A stretch of DNA of 64,000 nt from Bactericera cockerelli. Its lineage: Eukaryota; Arthropoda; Insecta; Hemiptera; Triozidae. The DNA is taken from positions 23,253,676 to 23,317,675 of the forward strand of contig CM044963.1 of assembly GCA_024516035.1 (NCBI GenBank), in the 5' to 3' direction. The notes beneath the pieces are model-generated. The model saw only the letters and a program-made list of their open reading frames with translations, was not told the DNA's origin and ran no database searches. The translations under genes and the position numbers were made by a program. This document shows, piece after piece, positions 8,018 through 55,600 of this stretch. Each line of letters starts with the position of its first letter. The stretch's first letter is position 1.

Positions 8018-8041
8018 CTACAGGAAACTGTAGGAACTTAC

Positions 8042-8458
8042 CGAACTAACATCTGATGAGCTAACTAGAGATGACCGGATGGTGGGGTTGGGGATGAGGA
8101 CTCCCAGGGGTTGCCGACTGCTGGCAGGTGTCCTGCTGATGGACTCTGAGGCCATCTCGGATTGCCTGGAGTTTGCTGTCAACATGGCGATGGCTGCTGA
8201 TTCCACAGCGGCTGGGTCCAGGGTGGGATGGGTCTCCAGAGCATACTGAAGGTCACAGATGTATTCAATGACGTAGTGGATCACTTCCAATTTCGACAAC
8301 TTCTTATTTTTAGGCATGAAAGGGACGAGCTCCTTTAATTTAGAAAGGTACATTTGGATTTCCTCGTTTTCGATGTTTTTGGTTTTGTTGGGTTTGGCAA
8401 CTTTGCCGTTGATGATGTTGTTGTTGTTAGATAAGATATCAGCTGGTATGGCCTTCAT
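8042..8458 (-). CDS. emc: extramacrochaetae/Id-type HLH protein, first coding exon
   Basis: Encodes 139 residues from ATG to a consensus splice donor (TCG|GTAAGT, GT at 8041-8040 on the minus strand); the frame runs only 7 further codons to a stop, so the protein continues in a later exon. Residues about 34-76 form a helix-loop-helix ([17 protein letters not shown], loop KNKKLS, then [20 protein letters not shown]). No basic DNA-binding region precedes it, which defines Id/Emc proteins: they dimerise with proneural and E-type bHLH factors in the nucleus and stop them binding DNA. The following [11 protein letters not shown] resembles the RQPL segment found after the HLH in insect Emc. An intron shortly after the HLH is typical of the family. 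Drosophila Emc is longer. The start is the first ATG after the TATA-driven leader. The family assignment is firm; the C-terminus is missing. Confidence 0.9.
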
Positions 8459-24949: not shown

Positions 24950-24990
24950 GTTAGTCGCCTTTTACGACAGGGGAGCACTCCGTGGTCTTA
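24950..24990 (+). repeat. GTCGCCTTTTACGACAGG repeat motif
   Basis: tagtcgccttttacgacagg followed by a near-palindromic ggagcactccgtgg. The reverse complement of a variant (gtcgccttctacgacaggcg) occurs at 55018-55058, in the 3' region of the basic-protein gene. I remember similar motifs as widespread in arthropod transcripts but cannot name the element. Confidence 0.4.
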
Positions 24991-25295: not shown

Positions 25296-25367
25296 ACCTC
25301 AGTAGCTTGATCAATAGAGCGACGGACTTGTAATCTGGAGGTCAGTGGTTCAAGTCCCATATCAGGT
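25296..25367 (+). repeat. tRNA-Thr(TGT)-like SINE head, best preserved
   Basis: 72 nt with tRNA layout: TAGCTTGATCAATAGAGC (D arm/A box), acggacttGTaatctgg (TGT in anticodon position), AGGTC, and agtggttcaagtcccat (B box). The acceptor ends (acct...aggt) pair in part. Two acceptor mismatches and the repeated occurrence elsewhere argue for a SINE head rather than a working tRNA gene. Confidence 0.6.
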
Positions 25368-25369
25368 AA

Positions 25370-26385: not shown

Positions 26386-26485
26386 NNNNNNNNNNNNNNN
26401 NNNNNNNNNNNNNNNNNNNNNNNNNNNNNNNNNNNNNNNNNNNNNNNNNNNNNNNNNNNNNNNNNNNNNNNNNNNNNNNNNNNNN
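26386..26485. other. scaffold gap (100 N)
   Basis: Exactly 100 N, the usual placeholder for a gap of unknown size. Confidence 0.99.
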
Positions 26486-26876: not shown

Positions 26877-26997
26877 GCCAGCGTCGATGGCATGTTGAAT
26901 ACACCGGTTCCCTTCAGAACACCGAAGTTAAGTGACATCCAGCGAGGTTAAGACTTGGATGGGTGACCATTCAAATTCTAATTCTCATGACGCTGGC
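26877..26997 (+). repeat. full-length 5S rRNA-like SINE head
   Basis: 121 nt, the length of 5S rRNA, starting gccagcgtcgatggcatgtt and ending gacgctggc, so the terminal helix (gccagcgtc/gacgctggc) is fully paired. The internal promoter is close to 5S: accgaagttaagtgacatcc for box A and acttggatgggtgaccat for box C. A real 5S gene would end in a T run; here it runs on through ttttcccggccccactcagg into the body of the SINE family at 24380. I call it a 5S-derived (SINE3-like) element. A 5S pseudogene next to an unrelated SINE body is the alternative. Confidence 0.75.
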
Positions 26998-27125
26998 TTT
27001 TCCCGGCCCCACTCAGGCTGGGTGAGGTCAATGTGAGTAGCAGGTTTGTGAGTTTCCTGCGAATGGAGGGTAAAACCCCCGTCGTGATATGACAATGGTA
27101 GTTGAAAGCGACGTTAAAAACCACT
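26998..27125 (+). repeat. SINE body joined to 5S head
   Basis: actcaggctgggtgaggt, cgaatggagggtaaaacccc and gcgacgttaaaaacc follow the same order as in the tRNA-headed SINE (24500-24605). It ends in an A-rich tract. Confidence 0.65.
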
Positions 27126-37003: not shown

Positions 37004-37103
37004 NNNNNNNNNNNNNNNNNNNNNNNNNNNNNNNNNNNNNNNNNNNNNNNNNNNNNNNNNNNNNNNNNNNNNNNNNNNNNNNNNNNNNNNNNNNNNNNNN
37101 NNN
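37004..37103. other. scaffold gap (100 N)
   Basis: Exactly 100 N. The retroelement layer to its right starts abruptly, so the 5' part of that layer is hidden or missing here. Confidence 0.99.
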
Positions 37104-47482: not shown

Positions 47483-47815
47483 ACCAAAATATTTGATGGC
47501 TTCTTATCGCATCAAATATCACCACTTATCGCAAAGTCGAAATGAGCCAGTAAAATCAAACTGTAAAATAAAATAAGTTAGTAAAACAGCATCATTACAG
47601 TTTCACAAAATCTGATCTCACAAAATTGAAAAATACCAAATCACACTAATACCCACCGATACACTTTCAACATGGAACCCTTTAACACCAAAATTTTGTA
47701 CGAAAACTTATTATTGCCATCAACGAAGATCATGTCTAACAACATCAGGTCACAAGATCATAAAAGGAAAAATGATGGATGACTCAACAACCCATTCCAA
47801 TTCTCAACAACCAAG
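47483..47815. other. no supported gene
   Basis: AT-rich spacer between the R2-like remnant and the 3' repeats of the basic-protein gene copy. Confidence 0.4.
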
Positions 47816-47900
47816 ATGCCACACTACAAGGTGTCGAGGTGGCTCTTGTGAACTTCGAATTTTCTTGTGAAGACAATTTTGATAGTTGTAGGTGTCATAA
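47816..47900 (-). repeat. 3' motif unit of basic-protein copy B
   Basis: Minus strand: aactatcaaaattgtcttca, caagaaaattcgaagttcac, aagagccacctcgacacc. It is the same 55-60 bp unit that follows the other two exon copies. Confidence 0.65.
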
Positions 47901-48047
47901 CTTGGCTTCTTTGTTGACGATTTTTTTTTTATATATATAGGTAATTTTGAGTGCGTTTCAATTTGGTGTGGGATCATCAAATATTTTTTGTAAGTTTTCA
48001 TGTTTTTTTTTTTTACAAAATAACTTCATCACCACGGGAGTATTCTA

Positions 48048-48204
48048 TTATCCCCTCCCCCTCAGGGTGGAACCTTTTCTATAGTAATATAACGAATAGT
48101 CCACTATCCTGATTATCCATTCTCTTCTCTCACTTTCCTTTTTGATTTTTAAGTATGCTTCCCAATATCGGGATTTTGGATTTGGGCAGGTGTTTTTATG
48201 AATT
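48048..48204 (-). pseudogene. basic-protein family, last-exon copy B
   Basis: Encodes TCPNP, SRYWEAYLKIKKESE, RREWIIRIVDYSLYY and then lacks the stop used in the other copies, reading on to RKGSTLRGRG and TAA at 48048. The terminal TGA/TAA has become TATAGA. It abuts copy A head to head with about 15 bp between, so no splice acceptor or first exon can lie upstream: an inversion has broken it, or it is a partial copy. Its protein sequence is nonetheless close to the intact copy at 54813. Confidence 0.65.
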
Positions 48205-48213
48205 CTTCTTAAA

Positions 48214-48327
48214 AAAACCTGCCCGAATCCACAATCCCGATATTGGGAGGCATACTTGAAAATCAAAAAGGAAAGTGAAAGGCGTGAATGGATCATCAGG
48301 ATTTTAGACTTCACGTTATATTATTAA
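48214..48327 (+). pseudogene. basic-protein family, last-exon copy A
   Basis: 37 codons and TAA: KTCPNPQSRYWEAYLKIKKE, SERREWIIRI, LDFTLYY. Compared with the 54813 copy, 23 of 37 codons differ but only 5 change the residue (T/A, Q/K, R/Q, L/V, F/Y). No acceptor precedes it because the inverted copy B lies directly upstream. Downstream it keeps the family's ccaccctgagaagggggaga block and the 3' motif units (48386-48740). Confidence 0.65.
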
Positions 48328-48385
48328 AGAAAAGTCTCCACCCTGAGAAGGGGGAGAATATTTACTCCCTCTGTTGATGACACCT

Positions 48386-48740
48386 ACTACCTTCAAAAAT
48401 ATCTGCATGAGAAAATCCACACGAGCCAAGTTATGACACCTTGCAGTGTGGCGTCTTCAACCACCATGGTGTTCACATGATCATGTATACACTGGTATAT
48501 GAGCTGTTTGCATTATGGCCTGCGTTGTTGGACCATAAGTTTTACTAGTATTCAACAACTTTCACTGGTAAATGAATGGGTTGATTAAAATTGCTTGTTT
48601 AATCGTCATATTACAACCTTCAAAATTATCTGCATGAGAAAATTTGAAGTCAACACAAGAGCCAAGTTATTACACCTACATCGCTCAAAGTAATCAGCAT
48701 AAGAAAATTTGACGTCCTCACACCAATTTTATTTTGAAGG
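48386..48740 (+). repeat. 3' motif units of basic-protein copy A
   Basis: Three spaced units of the type ttcaaaattatctgcatgag, aaaatttgaagtcaacacaa, gagccaagttattacacc, at about 48390, 48610 and 48685. They match units behind copies B and C. Confidence 0.65.
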
Positions 48741-49792
48741 CAAAGTATGTAGAAGGAATACGACGAGCAAGAGAAACACCGCGGAAGAAATGTATAGACA
48801 ACACCTTGCAGTCTTAACAAAATCTAATCTCCAAAATTTAATAATAATTGGAAAAATAACAAGTCAATGAAATACCTACCTCTTAACATGGGATGAGACC
48901 TGAACGAAAAATTTCTAGTATGACTTAATTCATGAAATGGAATTTTGCGGTATTTGTCACAGACTCCTAAGAGTCATTGTTTCCATCAACGAATAATGTT
49001 TAGAAAGGAAACTGATATTGCAACGACCAATATTGAAATCCTCAAAATTTATCTGTGATTTTTTTTTCATAAAAGAGTTGGACCAGAGAAACTCATGGTC
49101 CAACAATGCAGGCCATAATACACAGCTTTTGTATGCAAGGCGACAGACTCAAGATGCAAAATCCAATATACTCCTTATGGTTTATCAGTGAATGTTGTCA
49201 AATACTAGATATACTTATGGTCAAGACGAAAGACACAGATGTGAATACCATGGTCACTGAAGACGGCACACCACAAGATACACAGCTCGCTGTCTTCAGA
49301 TCTTTGTGAATGAATCGAAAGTTGGCATCCTCTTCATCTCTTCTAGCTGTATAATTCATCGCCCTAGTACTTTGGTCAATATAGCAGGCCTATGGAACAA
49401 GCGTCATCGAATTTGGCCTTTTGCCGTCTTCCCTACAGAGTCCTACCGCCTGTCTTGTTGATGTTACCTGAATTTATGTCAGAGTTTGGTGTATGTTGAA
49501 TAAAATATTCTATTCTAATCTAATACTGTTTTAATTGATCCAGGACATGATTTGTTGACCAAAATTTTTTGGTCCCATGGTCACAGTCTTCCAAGCTAGA
49601 TATTCAGATCCTTTCTTTTTTTGTTTACCTTCTCCTATATTGGTTCAGAATGGAACATTTAATAAAACTTACTTCTTTGAAATCCGGAGTCTTATTCGTC
49701 CAAAAATGTTATCAGATCAGATTTGAGAAAAAAATACTAACGTAAACAATAGGTATTTTCTATAACTTATAGGTAAGTATTTATATATTTTT
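48741..49792. other. unassigned, with a distant inverted repeat
   Basis: gttggaccataagttt near 48530 (preceded by cattatggcctgcgttg) is mirrored by aaactcatggtccaacaatg and caggccataata near 49090-49118, so part of the copy A flank is inverted here. The 67-codon frame at 49106-49309 is unrecognised. Confidence 0.4.
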
Positions 49793-50028
49793 ACTAGCGG
49801 GCTGTCGCCCGCTTTGCGGGCTGAGGCATGGCCGTGAAAGCAAAAAATCCTTTTTCGCCAATGGCAGGTGTTGTAGTGGGAATTTTGAAAAAATCCCGTC
49901 TTATTGCACATCTAGAATATAAGACAAAGCTACCTACCAAATTTCAGCTCGCTAGGTATTACGGTTTGGGCTGTAGAGCGATGATCAGTCAGTCAGTCAG
50001 TGACTTTGACATTTATATGTATATTAAG
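49793..50028 (+). repeat. GCCCGC-hairpin repeat, unit 1
   Basis: Starts actagcgggctgtcgcccgc with ttgcgggc, continues ggcatggccgtgaaagc, acggtttgggctgtagagcg, atgatcagtcagtcagtcag and ends tttatatgtatattaag. It is followed directly by unit 2. The 5' end folds on itself (gcgggc/gcccgc). Confidence 0.75.
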
Positions 50029-50275
50029 ACTAGCGGACTGTCGCCCGCTTTGCGGGCCGAGGCATGGCCGTGAAAGCAAAAAATCCTTTTTCGCCAATGG
50101 CAGGTGTTGTAGTGGGAATTTCGAAAAATCCTGTCTTATTGCACATCTAGTCTATAAGACAAAGCTACATACCAAATTTCAGCTTCCTAGGACTTACGGT
50201 TTGGGCTGTAGAGCGATGATCAGTGAGTGGTCAGTCAGTGGTCAGTCAGTGACTTTGACATTTATATATTAGGAT
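50029..50275 (+). repeat. GCCCGC-hairpin repeat, unit 2
   Basis: Direct tandem copy of unit 1 with an expanded cagtgagtggtcagtcagtgg stretch, ending in tttatatattagg. Confidence 0.75.
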
Positions 50276-50530
50276 AACTAATAAAAAAATAAAAAATAAA
50301 ACAATAAAAAGTGAGCAGGGTTTGCTAAAATGTTGTTAGATTTTTTTTAAACAAATTATATTTTTTATTAAATTATAACAGGAGCTGCCAGTCTTTGACT
50401 GGTTGCCATTCCGGACAGCATATCCATCAAATCTATCAGACAATTTTCTAACATAAAAATTATATTTTTTTAACTAACTTTTTTAAAATTAACTTTTAAC
50501 TTACATTCTACACATTTATAATATATCCGA
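50276..50530. other. AT-rich spacer
   Basis: Nothing recognised. Confidence 0.4.
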
Positions 50531-50853
50531 GGCATTGTCCTAATATATATTTCTCGAACCCGACTCTACACCCGAATCATGTCCCTATGATTATGTAGGT
50601 ATATTCCTAACCCTACTTTACACCCGAATCATGTCCCTATGATTATGTAGGTATATTCCTAACCCTACTTTACACCCGAATCATGTCCCTATGATTATTT
50701 AGGTATATTCCTAACCCTACTTTACACCCGAATCATGCCCTATGATTATGTAGGTATATTCCTAACCCTACTTTACACCCGAATCATGTCCCTATGATTA
50801 TGTAGGTATATTCCCAACCCTACTTTACACCCGAATCATGTCCCTATGATTAT
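50531..50853 (+). repeat. 52-bp minisatellite, array 1 (about 6 units)
   Basis: Unit contains tatgattatgtaggtatatt, cctaaccctactttacaccc and gaatcatgtccc; the period of 52 bp was counted directly (50586 to 50638). The cctaaccctactYtacac part also appears as single dispersed copies at about 29070 and, inverted, at 17785 and 21622. Confidence 0.85.
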
Positions 50854-51091
50854 CTTAATATATAAATGTCAAAGACACTCACTGACCACTGACCACTGAC
50901 TGATCATCGCTCTACAGCCCAAACCGTAAGTCCTAGGAAGCTGAAATTTGGTAGGTAGCTTTGTCTTATAGTCTAGATGTGCAATAAGACGGGATTTTTC
51001 GAAATTCCCACTAGAACACCTGCCATTGGCGAAAAAGGATTTTTTGCTTTCACGGCCATGCCTCGGCCCGCAAAGCGGGCGTCAGCCCGCT
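50854..51091 (-). mobile_element. GCCCGC-hairpin repeat inserted in the minisatellite
   Basis: Minus-strand copy of the 49793 unit (cttaatatataaatgtcaaa ... cccgcaaagcgggcgtcagc). It splits a minisatellite unit at gattat|gtagg, so it behaves as a mobile element and its ends are the true element ends. Confidence 0.75.
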
Positions 51092-51245
51092 TGTGTAGGT
51101 ATATTCCTAACCCTACTTTACACCCGGGGCATGGCCCTATGATTATGTAGGTATATTCCTAACCCTACTTTACACCCGGGGCATGGCCCTATGATTATGT
51201 AGGTATATTCCTAACCCTACTTTACACCCGGGGCATGGCCCTATC
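51092..51245 (+). repeat. 52-bp minisatellite, array 2 (3 units)
   Basis: Same unit but with cccggggcatggccctatg in all three copies, so this half was homogenised separately from array 1. Confidence 0.85.
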
Positions 51246-51662
51246 TCTGCTTCCTAAGACCTACTACAATCCTACTGAATAAAATTTTCATTCCACCTTG
51301 ATTTGAAATTTTCACGTAAGTAGGTATATCATTATTTCAAATTTGTTGCGTTGGGGGAGTTTATCTTTAATTATTATGTGAAAATGAAACAATACTTTTT
51401 AACAATCCCTATTACCTATCTGCGGAATATTGAAAATGAAGAAAAAACTGAAGAAAGATTCCAAAGAATGTTTTTTTCCGTGTGTGTATAATTTGGCTGT
51501 TATGGGCAACAATTAAAATTTGGCTCATAAATATAGTGCAATTGTTTAAAAAATGATGAAAATATTTCATTCTGAAAATTCCTCGTGACCTAAATTGTTT
51601 TGGTACTTCTATCGTTTCCTAATTTAGAACAGTTAAGTTTTGATTTCGCTTCGTTTTGAACG
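51246..51662. other. region upstream of the basic-protein gene
   Basis: AT-rich. No TATA box or initiator stands out just before the ATG at 51663; tttagaacagttaagttttg lies within 50 bp upstream. Confidence 0.4.
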
Positions 51663-51879
51663 ATGGATGTTCGGCGTACACAAGCCATCGTCAATATGCG
51701 GAACCCAGAGAAAATAAGAAAGACAAAACCGAAGATCAAAAAAAGCACGAAACCAATGGTGCCCAAGTCCATCAAGCCCAAGCCCATCAAACCCAAGTCC
51801 ATCAAGCCTCACCTGCGCCGAAAAACATCAGTGGCCAAAACCAAAACCTTGGTTAAGAAATCAGTCAAAAAACCAACAG
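51663..51879 (+). CDS. lysine-rich basic protein, exon 1
   Basis: 72 codons plus one base, ATG to a donor ACAG|GTAAATA. Starts MDVRRTQAIVNMRNPEKIRK; about residues 35-53 repeat a KSIKPKPIKP unit two and a half times; then HLRRKTSVAKTKTLVKK. Very rich in Lys, Arg, Pro and Thr with almost no acidic residues, like H1 tails or sperm nuclear basic proteins. Splicing to 54813 restores a GAT codon and gives a 127-residue protein. I do not recognise the family. Chromatin or RNA binding is an inference from charge only. The ATG is the first in frame and the donor is intact. Confidence 0.6.
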
Positions 51880-51990
51880 GTAAATATTTAATAATGTTAA
51901 AATCATAGATATTTTAATAATTTATTTGTCATTGACGAAAACTAAAATCTTGGTTAAAAAATCGGTCAAACCAACAGGTAAATATTGTAA
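51820..51990 (+). repeat. 98-bp tandem duplication over the exon 1 splice donor
   Basis: aaaaccaaaaccttggttaa ... ccaacaggtaaatatt (exon end and intron start) recurs 98 bp later as aaaactaaaatcttggttaa ... ccaacaggtaaatattg, giving a second donor at 51978. The second unit lacks an acceptor of its own but could be used as an alternative donor. Confidence 0.7.
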
Positions 51991-52171
51991 AAATCATCGA
52001 TATTTTAATAATTTATTTGTTTCAAAACGTCCTCAACTTTTCCAAAGATGAGATTAATAAATTGACAATTCATAAGGAAGAAGAACATTTTCTATGTTTT
52101 CTTTTAAACAATTTTCACAGATATAATTATACAGGTATATTTTATTTGTTTCATTTTTTTTTTTAATAATT
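51991..52171. other. intron sequence
   Basis: AT-rich, no recognised content. Confidence 0.4.
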
Positions 52172-52389
52172 CAAAAACCAGCCATGATTAATAATTTAAT
52201 AATTCTATTAAATTATTAATCATGGCTGGTTTTTGAAGATTATACTTTAGTTAAAGGCTTATGACAGTTATGTATGACCTTCCTAGAATTTTTCAGATTC
52301 ATCTTCTTTTTAAAAATCAATAATTGATACACGAATACGTGAGTCTAGCATTTCCTGCCTTAACCAGGCTGGGTGAGATTACTGTACCT
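52172..52389 (+). repeat. 218-bp unit: hairpin plus SINE fragment, copy 1
   Basis: Contains a perfect hairpin at 52173-52234 (two 29-nt arms, 4-nt ATTC loop; arms begin AAAAACCAGCCATGATTAAT), then ttatactttagttaaaggct, then 73 bp of the SINE body (52317-52389: tcaataattgatacacgaat ... gattactgtacct). The unit is repeated from 52390, where an RT element splits the second copy between the hairpin part and the SINE part. Confidence 0.8.
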
Positions 52390-52534
52390 CAAAAACCAGC
52401 CATGATTAATAATTTAATAATTCTATTAAATTATTAATCATGGCTGGTTTTTGAAGATTATACTTTAGTTAAAGGCTTATGACAGTTATGTATGACCTTC
52501 CTAGAATTTTTCAGATTCATCTTCTTTTTAAAAA
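52390..52534 (+). repeat. 218-bp unit, copy 2, hairpin part
   Basis: Base-for-base repeat of 52172-52316 as far as I can see, with the same hairpin at 52391-52452. The SINE part of this copy lies at 54365-54437, beyond the inserted element. Confidence 0.8.
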
Positions 52535-54328
52535 TCTTTTGCTCCTGACTCATGCACTTATAATATCTTTAACCTTCCACCTAGTATCTCGAGTGACTTT
52601 TTCTCTTTGCCAAAGGTTAGAGAGTCCGATATTTTGTTTCAAATCAATCAAATTGAATATAAAAAACCAGCAGGCCCAGACGGAATTCTACCCGGGTTTA
52701 TCAAAAAAATTCCAAATGGATTCGTACGACCTCTTATGATTCTTTTTAACCGCTCATTAGATAAATCTGTCTTTCCATCCAAACTAAAAGAAGCTGTCGT
52801 CACTCCTATTCCTAAAAAAAGTTCCGATAAAATAGAGGACCAGCGTCCTATTTCAAATATTAATGCTTTCGCTAAAATCTTCGAAGGAATAATTTATGAT
52901 ACCTTATCAGTTTTCATATTCAATCATGTAAGCATTCATCAACACGGGTTCATTAAAGCACGTTCTACTGTTACAAACTTGGTAGAGTTTTCTCACTTTA
53001 TAGCTGAAAATATTGAACGTAAACAAATCGACGTACTATATACCGACGTTGAAAAAGCATTTGACCGACTTAATCATGATGCCATACTCAGAAAAATGAA
53101 TACTCTAGGTTTTTCCAGACCATCTTTATCTTTCTTCACATCATACCTAAGAGACCGCAAACTAAAAATCGGAGAAGTTACAATCACACCTAACTCTGGA
53201 GTAGCTCAGGGGTCAAAAATATCTAGCCTTTTATTTATAATGACGTATGACGATATTAGAAATCATATTAAATATTCTCACTACAGCCTTTATGCTGACG
53301 ACTTCAAAATTTACAAAGCTATTAACTCGCCTGAAGACTGCTACCTTCTTCAACGTGACATAGATGCTGTATCTGATTGGCTAACAACAATTGGATTAAA
53401 TTTCCATCCACTTAAGTGTAAACAAATTTCTTATAGTACTAAAGAAAAACGCATCGCAAGCACATACACCATAAATAATCAACCCGTGGAAACTACAAAA
53501 TCTTTCAAAGACCTTGGTGTGTTATACCAATCAAACTTCTCCTTCATACCACATATAGAACAAATTGCAACCACGGCCTACAGAAACTTGGGTATGATTA
53601 TTCGATATTGCAAACAAATCGATGATATTGATGCTATTCGAGTTCTGTATTTATCTTTAGTTCGATCAAAAGTTGAATACGCCTCACTGATATGGTCTCC
53701 TAGTCAAAAAAATCATTCAAAAACAATCGAAAATATACAAGCTAAATTTGCTAGATATCTATTCAAAAAAGTAAATAATTTTTATCCGACATATCCAGAG
53801 CAAATCTCTTACTCGCTTCTTATTGAAAACCTTGACCTGCTTAAGCTGGAAGATCGAAGAGAACTAGAAAAAATGAAATTTCTTTACAAAATAATAAATA
53901 ATAACATTGACGCACCACAAATTCTTTCAAAGATCTCCTTCAAAGTTCCTCGACCAGGCCTGAGACAAAGAAACTTATTCTTTGACATACAAAACAATAT
54001 TTCACCAAAATCCCCCATCACATCGTCCATGAAGACATTCAATAACTTGGACATAAAACCTGATTTTTCGTTAAACTACAACGATTTCACAGATTTTCTG
54101 AACCCTCAATAGCAGAGCCTAATTCAAAAATGAAATATTCGTTAATACATTTTAAGTAGGTACATAGAATTTATCAATCTATTCATATTTACCTTTATGT
54201 ACTTAATTATAAGAATTAGTTCTATGAAAATTATTATCCTATTGTATCGATTAACGAATCCTATATGTATATTTATGCTAGTATTGTTACATTTAATTCC
54301 TTTATTATATGTAATGTTGCATATCTTA

Positions 54329-54364
<36 letters not shown>
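52535..54364 (+). mobile_element. 5'-truncated non-LTR retrotransposon (layer C)
   Basis: RT coding sequence starts within a few bases of the junction (APDSCTYNIFNLPP), and the element ends in about 33 A residues at 54331-54364. Junctions share aaaaatc, the probable target duplication. Only the RT part was copied, the usual result of incomplete reverse transcription. Confidence 0.8.
52607..54112 (+). CDS. reverse transcriptase, truncated LINE (layer C)
   Basis: About 500 open codons of an RT without its endonuclease; the open frame extends upstream of 52607 to about 52540. KPAGPDGILPGFIKK and VVTPIPKKS are fingers motifs; QHGFIKARSTVTNL follows; Asp at 147 in YTDVEKAFDRL; GVAQGSKISS; active site YADD at 229-232; then FKDLGV and thumb motifs to DFTDFLNPQ. 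It is related to the CR1-like ORF2 in this window (same layout of Y-T-D-V-x-x-A-F-D and S-T-Y-T-I-N) but clearly a different family with poly(A) tail. No lesions in this part. It lies inside the intron of the basic-protein gene, same strand. Confidence 0.85.
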   Translation: MPKVRESDILFQINQIEYKKPAGPDGILPGFIKKIPNGFVRPLMILFNRSLDKSVFPSKLKEAVVTPIPKKSSDKIEDQRPISNINAFAKIFEGIIYDTLSVFIFNHVSIHQHGFIKARSTVTNLVEFSHFIAENIERKQIDVLYTDVEKAFDRLNHDAILRKMNTLGFSRPSLSFFTSYLRDRKLKIGEVTITPNSGVAQGSKISSLLFIMTYDDIRNHIKYSHYSLYADDFKIYKAINSPEDCYLLQRDIDAVSDWLTTIGLNFHPLKCKQISYSTKEKRIASTYTINNQPVETTKSFKDLGVLYQSNFSFIPHIEQIATTAYRNLGMIIRYCKQIDDIDAIRVLYLSLVRSKVEYASLIWSPSQKNHSKTIENIQAKFARYLFKKVNNFYPTYPEQISYSLLIENLDLLKLEDRRELEKMKFLYKIINNNIDAPQILSKISFKVPRPGLRQRNLFFDIQNNISPKSPITSSMKTFNNLDIKPDFSLNYNDFTDFLNPQ

Positions 54365-54367
<3 letters not shown>

Positions 54368-54500
54368 ATAATTGATACACGAATACGTGAGTCTAGCATT
54401 TCCTGCCTTACCCAGGCTGGGTGAGATTACTGTACCTGGTACGATTTCCAGCGAATAGAGGGTAAAACTTCCTTCCTAATCAGGACGTTATATTAAATCA
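54365..54500 (+). repeat. SINE body fragment
   Basis: ccttacccaggctgggtgag, ctggtacgatttccagcgaa, tagagggtaaaact and caggacgtta match the body of the complete SINE at 24380. The head is missing. The first 73 bp are also the tail of the 218-bp unit. Confidence 0.7.
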
Positions 54501-54812
54501 GAGTTTTATGATATGTCACGTTAAATCATATCATCACATTTTCAACTAAATTTCTTCTAAGTTTTCTTGAATTAAACGTTTTCTTGGGCGCTTTCAAAGT
54601 GTTTCAAAGTTTTCAATTTTTGTGGTACGTTTCTCTCATACATCAAAATAATAACTAATTATATGCTAAAACATTAAACAAGTGAAATAGACTTAATTTT
54701 AACATGAACATTAAAACATTATATTTAAAGAAGGTATTATGTATATTTACCAACCTATTTTATGTTGACTACTTTGTACAATGTACATATATAATTTTTT
54801 TTTAACTCACAG
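54501..54812. other. end of intron
   Basis: AT-rich, finishing in a good polypyrimidine tract and acceptor (tttttttttaactcacAG, AG at 54811-54812). Confidence 0.5.
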
Positions 54813-54979
54813 ATGAATCAATAAAACGGAAAAAGGAAGAAGCGAGGGTAAAGAGAATACGAAAGAAAGCCTGCCCCAACCCCAAATCAAGATATTGGGA
54901 AGCATATTTGAAAATCAAAAAAGAAAGCGAACAAAGAGAATGGATAATACGGATAGTGGATTATACCCTGTACTATTGA
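54813..54979 (+). CDS. lysine-rich basic protein, exon 2
   Basis: After a strong acceptor the frame continues DESIKRKKEEARVKRIRKK, then ACPNPK, SRYWEAYLKIKKESE, QREWIIRIVDYTLYY and TGA. The two exons sum to 384 nt, exactly 128 codons. The first part is a highly charged probable helix; the second is the family's conserved block with one Cys, two Trp and several Tyr, likely a short folded domain. Two further copies of the block at 48.06-48.33 kb keep the protein while codons change, so the coding frame is real. The gene's 3' flank has the family's gttccaccctgagagg block and motif array. Function unknown; a male-germline nuclear protein is one guess based on composition and rapid local duplication. 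Confidence 0.65.
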
Positions 54980-55017
54980 AGAATGGTTCCACCCTGAGAG
55001 GGGGGTGATAGAATACT

Positions 55018-55058
55018 CTCTCGGTATCTCCACGCCTGTCGTAGAAGGCGACTAAGGA
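55018..55058 (-). repeat. GTCGCC...GACAGG repeat motif
   Basis: Minus strand tagtcgccttctacgacagg, cgtggagatacc. Variant of the motif at 24950. Confidence 0.4.
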
Positions 55059-55119
55059 GGCCGTATGATCGACGGCGTTAAACACATATGATCCCTCACC
55101 AAGTTCAATCACAATCAAA

Positions 55120-55600
55120 ATTATGCGCAAGTACACACAAGGCCAAGTCAACTCACCACTATACATTTATCGAAATTATCTGCAAGACAAAATTTTCTGC
55201 AAAACAAGCCAAGTTATAACACACCACCATCAAAATTATGCGCAAGAAGAAATTTGTTGTTCACAAGAGCCAAGTTAACACACCACTTTATATCAAAATT
55301 ATCTGCGAAACAAGCCAAGTTATATCACACCACCATCAAAATTATGCGCAAGAAGAAATTTGTTGTTCACAAGAGCCAAGTTACCACACCACTATATATC
55401 AAAATTACCGGGAATGGAAATTTTTCGTCTAACACAAACTAAGTTATTACACCCACCAATATCAAAATTATATGCAAAATAAAATTTTCGTGAACACAAA
55501 TAATAAGTTATGACACACTACAGTAAAAATTCTCTGCAAGGATAAATTTGACGTCTACACATTAATAAACTACACCTGCAAAATCAAAAATTTCTGTAGA
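55120..55600 (+). repeat. 3' motif array of the basic-protein gene (about 7-8 units)
   Basis: Imperfect tandem units of about 45-65 bp: atcaaaattatgcgcaagaa, gaaatttgttgttcacaaga, gccaagttaacacaccac. Two of them (55228 and 55337) are nearly identical. The same units follow last-exon copies A and B, so this is probably 3' untranslated sequence and may carry a regulatory or RNA-structural function. Confidence 0.7.

Follow-up and report, generated by a model that had tools for sequence, protein, structure and literature searches.

A candidate lineage-restricted gene for a small basic protein and an exon-derived palindrome in the psyllid Bactericera cockerelli

We analysed a 64,000-nucleotide stretch of the Bactericera cockerelli genome (GenBank assembly GCA_024516035.1, contig CM044963.1, positions 23,253,676 to 23,317,675 of the forward strand; hereafter the window), which holds what looks like a two-exon gene, here called C, and two partial copies of its last exon, A and B. 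Gene C would encode a basic protein of 127 residues, and the 35-codon block that it shares with A and B has been constrained at the level of the protein. The reading that we favour, with modest confidence, is that these sequences belong to a small, local host gene family restricted to the psyllid lineage (or that of a close relative), of which C would be the one intact member and A and B remnants of 3' ends. The gene that carries the block is then most likely part of an ordinary orphan gene family that has left behind an unusual palindromic relic.

The gene and its conserved block

An earlier note on this DNA had described a complete two-exon gene, and our reanalysis bore this out. Exon 1 (51663-51879, plus strand) opens with an ATG at 51663, contributes 72 codons and one further nucleotide, and encodes a Lys/Pro-rich basic tail. 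It is followed by a GT..AG intron of 2933 nt (51880-54812) and by exon 2 (copy C; 54813-54979), which encodes a predicted basic helix and the conserved block and closes with TGA. The exons join in frame across the junction 51879/54813 to give the 127 residues, with the TGA ending at 54979; the donor, the acceptor and the KSIKPKPIKP repeat named in the note are all present. Both splice sites are strong: when scored with a matrix of consensus frequencies, 37 of 6957 GTs reached the level of the donor and 32 of 7233 AGs that of the acceptor (both strands). A stop codon sits two codons upstream of exon 2, so the exon-2 frame opens at the splice site. AATAAA occurs downstream of the gene at 55478 and 55564. 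The composition of exon 1 also departs from that of its surroundings, GC content at third codon positions (GC3) being 0.57 compared to a GC content of 0.22-0.29 in the adjoining DNA.

The end of exon 1, including the donor, lies in a tandem duplication of 101 bp (51828-52020, plus strand). By splice score the duplicated donor (after 51977) equals the first, and read-through past the first donor runs into a stop. The intron contains a long interspersed nuclear element (LINE) with a reverse transcriptase open reading frame (ORF; 52607-54112, plus strand; RVT_1, 8.4e-27). This insertion is probably recent, because the 78-bp direct repeats that flank it (52312-52389 and 54360-54437) are 99% identical; their length would be unusual for a target-site duplication. 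Next to the 78-bp repeat lies a perfect repeat of 148 bp with an internal palindrome (52171-52318 and 52389-52536).

When exon 2 was compared with the window by tblastn, A was recovered over 43 residues (E 6.8e-24) and B over 38 (E 5.3e-22). The shared block lies at 54872-54976 (plus strand) in C (CPNPKSRYWEAYLKIKKESEQREWIIRIVDYTLYY), at 48084-48188 (minus strand) in A and at 48220-48324 (plus strand) in B. Both A and B are truncated at the 5' end; B retains a TAA at 48325-48327, and A has lost its stop, with TAT in that position. Over the 35 shared codons, those with only synonymous differences outnumbered those with replacements in every comparison (A-B 9:4, A-C 16:2, B-C 18:4), and base differences at codon positions 1, 2 and 3 numbered 4, 1 and 11 for A-B, 5, 1 and 15 for A-C, and 7, 2 and 19 for B-C. 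Under a null in which the same base changes were scattered at random over the block, 11.0 replacements are expected for A-B, 13.5 for A-C and 17.2 for B-C, compared to 4, 2 and 4 seen (P 5e-5 for A-B; 0/20000 for each of the other two). The purifying selection proposed in the note is thus upheld for the block, as is the mostly synonymous pattern that it had reported between A and C; its count of 18:5 over 37 codons became 16:4 on recounting, and 18:6 over 42 codons.

Residue identity in the coding frame was 31/35 for A-B, 33/35 for A-C and 31/35 for B-C. In the other five frames it was lower (23-28, 19-27 and 14-24 of 34-35, respectively), and most of these frames contained stops. At the level of DNA the block is 85% identical between A and B, and 73-80% between either of them and C. 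We polarised single changes by two-out-of-three, omitting the one site at which all three copies differ. Synonymous changes made up 7 of the 11 unique to B (2.2 expected, P 0.0015), 3 of the 4 unique to A (P 0.047), and 10 of the 15 when A and B were pooled (3.3 expected, P 1.5e-4); of those unique to C, which are unrooted and may belong to the A-B stem, 15 of 16 were synonymous. The ratio of nonsynonymous to synonymous substitution (dN/dS) between A and B was 0.055, a value resting on very few sites, and no such figure is given for A-C or B-C because their synonymous sites are saturated. Constraint fades away from the block: with seven upstream codons added, the counts became 9:9 for A-B, 18:6 for A-C and 19:9 for B-C. 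Taken together, these results support the view that the 35-codon block evolved as protein in all three lineages, because the copies differ mainly at synonymous positions (P <=5e-5 under the null).

The same data bear on whether C could be neutral debris, that is, a dead gene whose ORF survives by chance while constraint acted in relatives elsewhere. The truncation of A and B would fit such a history, as would an intron that holds a probably recent LINE between its 99%-identical 78-bp repeats. However, the start, splice sites and stop of C are intact, and nearly all changes unique to C are synonymous, even if some may have arisen on the A-B stem; we consider this history very unlikely.

The predicted product is a protein of 15.2 kDa with an isoelectric point (pI) of 10.72, and 30 Lys and 13 Arg among its 127 residues. 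The part encoded by exon 1 has a pI of 12.0, and its Lys/Pro-rich tail is KSIKPKPIKPKSIKP. Exon 2 was predicted to form two helices, of which the second spans 28 residues, with a predicted local distance difference test (pLDDT) of 83 and a predicted template modelling score (pTM) of 0.39, in a single-sequence prediction whose two-helix model is too simple to carry weight. From the sequence we infer that the protein is expressed, where it is located and that it binds nucleic acid: composition and conservation suggest a product that is probably nucleic-acid-binding, with chromatin as its likeliest setting and the germline as a possible one. The exon-1 tail would lie along DNA or RNA by virtue of its charge, and the conserved helical segment of exon 2 would serve as a specific docking or folding part.

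The palindrome of copies A and B

The note had counted three copies of a last exon, with A and B as separate exons. This part of its account did not survive: A and B match only the last 43 and 38 of the 55 residues encoded by exon 2 of C, so that the homology starts inside the exon and off the splice site, and the best acceptor score within 150 nt upstream was 3.6 for A and 3.9 for B, compared to 7.2 for C. In B, six open codons precede the block and are themselves preceded by a stop. Instead, A and B together make up a single palindrome at 48026-48380, each forming one arm, which the note had not mentioned. Aligned with its reverse complement, this 355-bp region is 81% identical over 359 columns; its arms are alike at 141 of 178 columns (79%) and meet near 48203, with a GAATTC near the centre that might have mediated a symmetric deletion. 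Predicted folding energies, computed without a shuffle control, were -215.6 kcal/mol for the plus strand and -211.3 kcal/mol for the minus strand. An assembly foldback artefact was ruled out, since the arms are about 20% different. Further inverted repeats (82-83%), in shuffled order, lie beside the B arm at 48440-48572 and 49082-49277.

On the host-family reading, A and B would be what is left of the 3' ends of two more family members, which kept coding through most of their divergence; these would later have been joined at their 5' ends to form the palindrome, with loss of their first parts. Given the constraint seen in both arms, we read the truncation as young relative to the divergence of A and B, unless the arms instead track a coding target.

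The latter possibility corresponds to a hairpin RNA (hpRNA) locus, in which the transcript of the palindrome would form a long duplex, to be cut by Dicer-2 into endogenous small interfering RNAs of 21 nt that would silence C or its paralogues. The inverted exon-2 fragment and exon 2 of C are separated by about 6.5 kb, pairing in the predicted plus-strand hairpin is near-continuous, and B is constrained even though it has no acceptor comparable to that of C. Furthermore, 21-mers of a plus-strand transcript come down to two mismatches to C, both of them G:U, and those of the minus strand to two mismatches, one of them G:U. Against this stands the divergence of the parts, the arms being 79% alike overall and 85% in the block, with C 20-27% different from them in the block. 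Arm mismatches gave no sign of selection for hairpin pairing: G:U mismatches are equally frequent on the minus and plus strands (8 vs 8), so no selection for pairing on one strand is apparent. We consider an hpRNA locus of this kind quite unlikely. The fuller version, in which a psyllid hairpin-RNA locus derived from exon 2 would have been kept to silence a family of basic proteins, in parallel with the conflicts described in Drosophila, we regard as more doubtful still.

Relatives, flanking repeats and surroundings

The note had called the family unrecognised, and this holds as far as Pfam, the PDB (for exon 2) and the proteins of similar length in a set of about 5.8 billion reach. No Pfam family scored above its cut-off for the 127 residues or for exon 2, in a scan run to E<=10 in which the HMMER filters discard most matches above 0.1. 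In particular, neither query gave a reverse transcriptase, integrase, transposase or gag domain above cut-off, and the scan of the C protein gave no linker-histone family. Two subthreshold hits were taken as chance, DUF4110 (E 0.015 and 15.8 bits vs a cut-off of 27 for exon 2; E 0.14 for the 127 residues) and DUF1087 (E 0.059, 13.9 bits vs 22.8). A sequence search of the PDB with exon 2 gave a best E of 2, and Foldseek found 0 matches in the PDB for the exon-2 model. Kinship with the HMG box, prompted by PNPKSRYW..YLKIKKES, was dropped, as Pfam, the predicted fold and Foldseek were all negative.

Among the approximately 5.8 billion proteins, the 127 residues yielded 34 candidates and a three-row alignment of exon 2 yielded one, in each case with 0 at E<=10; this search covered proteins whose length was 0.55-1.75 times that of the query and that share exact five-residue words with it, so that any longer protein with the block at its end would escape it. 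The database includes some psyllid proteins from NCBI, UniRef and nr. As a positive control we used a neighbouring ORF (8018-8458, minus strand), which encodes an Id-type helix-loop-helix protein resembling extra-macrochaetae (emc), as judged by HLH in Pfam and by its database relatives. Here 541 of 560 candidates were proteins at E<=0.001, and among the best 120 of the 541 the closest named relatives came from Cyamophila willieti (85%), Diaphorina citri (84%) and Cacopsylla melanoneura (78%), each identity spanning 86% of the query, which by itself places the window in or near Psylloidea. Searches of viral contigs (0 of 14 stretches confirmed), of contigs from prokaryote genomes (0 of 51 stretches confirmed) and of a phage collection (no relative) say little, since insect genes are hardly to be expected in any of the three.

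Similarity among the copies extends beyond the stop codon. The 3' flank of C (CCACCCTGAG..GGGG; 54980-55030, plus strand) is common to A (48026-48083) and B (48325-48380); counted from the position of the stop codon over about 55 nt, identity was 45/55 for A-B, 40/54 for A-C and 38/54 for B-C in ungapped columns. A minisatellite follows (55082-55570, plus strand), its units measuring about 53-60 bp. With this array as query, the same minisatellite was found 3' of B (48355-48747, plus strand; E 0.0069 for 48355-48470 and 1.2e-6 for 48586-48747) and 3' of A (47809-47933, minus strand; E 1.7e-5), and at E<=10 nothing else in the window matched; when one unit made by hand was searched unfiltered, its matches elsewhere in the window were weak (E 4 or worse). 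All copies of block and minisatellite found in the 64 kb thus fall within 8 kb, which matches the clustering that local duplication predicts. A dispersed motif of 50 nt in the C flank (AGAATA..CGG..CCTGTCGTAGAAGGCGACTAAGGA; 55010-55058, plus strand) has a second copy near 24951 on the minus strand, the two aligning with a score of 22.5 compared to a maximum of 16.5 in 1000 shuffles, which speaks for the flank containing some sequence from mobile elements. The motif CCTGTCGTA..GGCGACTAA, which is presumably widespread in insects, was found 0 times in the viral contigs, the genome contigs and a literature search.

These flanks raise the alternative that the block forms the C-terminus of an ORF belonging to a mobile element, with A, B and C as 5'-truncated or partly decayed copies from related element lineages and selection acting on active elements. 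A shared flank with minisatellite resembles the 3' end of an element, the flank motif of C recurs at the unrelated site near 24951, LINE ORFs are abundant in the window, and constraint in a protein that has no relative of similar length suits an element of patchy distribution. The main gap in our search with respect to this alternative is its length window, which passes over longer block-carrying proteins. On the other side, the 56 kb outside the 8-kb cluster gave no significant match, no reverse transcriptase, transposase or other Pfam domain rose above cut-off in the C protein, and C retains an intact spliced reading from start to stop. On balance we regard a mobile-element origin as unlikely.

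Several observations nevertheless weigh against the host-family reading. Strongly constrained, old paralogues (with saturated synonymous sites) that have no relative of similar length in a database with some psyllid proteins in it would be odd for a host gene, and the joint occurrence of constraint in A and B with their near-symmetric truncation demands a special event. Nor can copy A plainly be called dead: upstream of its block the frame remains open for a further 44 codons through the antisense of B, with one Met, and by hand count its unspliced reading runs for about 82 codons from Met to the next stop. As for exon 1, when the surrounding kilobase was shuffled with its dinucleotides preserved, 37 of 500 replicates contained an ATG-initiated ORF of at least 72 codons, so that exon 1 judged by length alone is weak evidence for a gene; the 64-kb window holds no second copy of it, and the codon evidence for constraint comes from the exon-2 block only. 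The argument from composition is likewise limited to exon 1, because the GC3 of exon 2 (0.38) is close to the value for the DNA 3' of it (0.37).

The DNA between the palindrome and exon 1 contains a repeat with CTAGCGGGCTGTCGCCCGC or near variants in three copies, one of them inverted, within 49778-50277 and 50850-51104, and amid these sits a minisatellite of 52 bp (50557-50853 and 51094-51244). Elsewhere in the window we observed a match to 5S rRNA (26877-26998, 58.9 bits), a marginal tRNA match (25296-25368, 29.5 bits vs a gathering threshold of 29) and two runs of N of 100 bases each (26386-26485 and 37004-37103). From 14.7 to 22.0 kb, weak matches repeat at a spacing of about 3780 bp (for example 16293/20073, 17398/21177 and 15117/18897); because they share this offset, the region probably contains a tandem duplication of 3.8 kb.

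Comparison with known systems

If C is expressed, it would represent a new and strongly constrained protein family that has no relative of similar length in the set searched, and codon evidence from raw sequence would have revealed a gene to which similarity searches are blind. The exon-derived palindrome near C would offer a direct opening onto conflict between genes and hairpins outside Drosophila, and a psyllid hairpin-RNA locus, if real, would place a Drosophila-like system in a distant insect order. The interest of the locus would grow sharply only if the palindrome gave rise to small RNAs.

Co-evolution of hpRNAs and their targets was reportedly treated by Wen et al. in 2015. In Drosophila, hairpin RNAs are in conflict with protamine-like genes, according to excerpts from PMC10292708, and hp58 of D. 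simulans is described in excerpts from PMC10317233 as a fragment of exon 2 repeated in inverted orientation close to its parent gene. The A/B palindrome resembles hp58 in being an inverted exon-2 fragment near a parent gene. It differs in that its arms are only 79% alike and are 20-27% off C in the block, and in that the arms also take in the 3' flank and minisatellite. In the literature on hemipteran hairpin RNAs we found no psyllid case among the matches listed.

Insect sperm nuclear basic proteins (SNBPs), which excerpts indicate to be the subject of PMC12216123, offer a second comparison. Those of D. melanogaster tend to be shorter than 200 residues with a pI mostly above 10 (PMC9917458, in excerpt), and Nasonia uses two protamine-like SNBPs derived from histone H1 (PMC13148410, in excerpt). 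The C protein is similar in its 127 residues, its pI of 10.72, its basic tail and its local multicopy arrangement, and an SNBP-like use is possible. However, the Pfam scan found neither an HMG box nor a linker-histone domain in it and, unlike in most Drosophila SNBPs, the block of C is strongly constrained. No psyllids were named among the matches listed in the literature on psyllid sperm proteins.

Finally, gene C may be compared with the orphan genes of Hemiptera, as reported for aphids in PMC3574423, a paper that, going by its title, treats secreted proteins. Like those genes, gene C has no relatives found outside its lineage. Unlike the aphid orphan genes, it carries internal evidence of protein-level constraint, provided by the three copies of its block.

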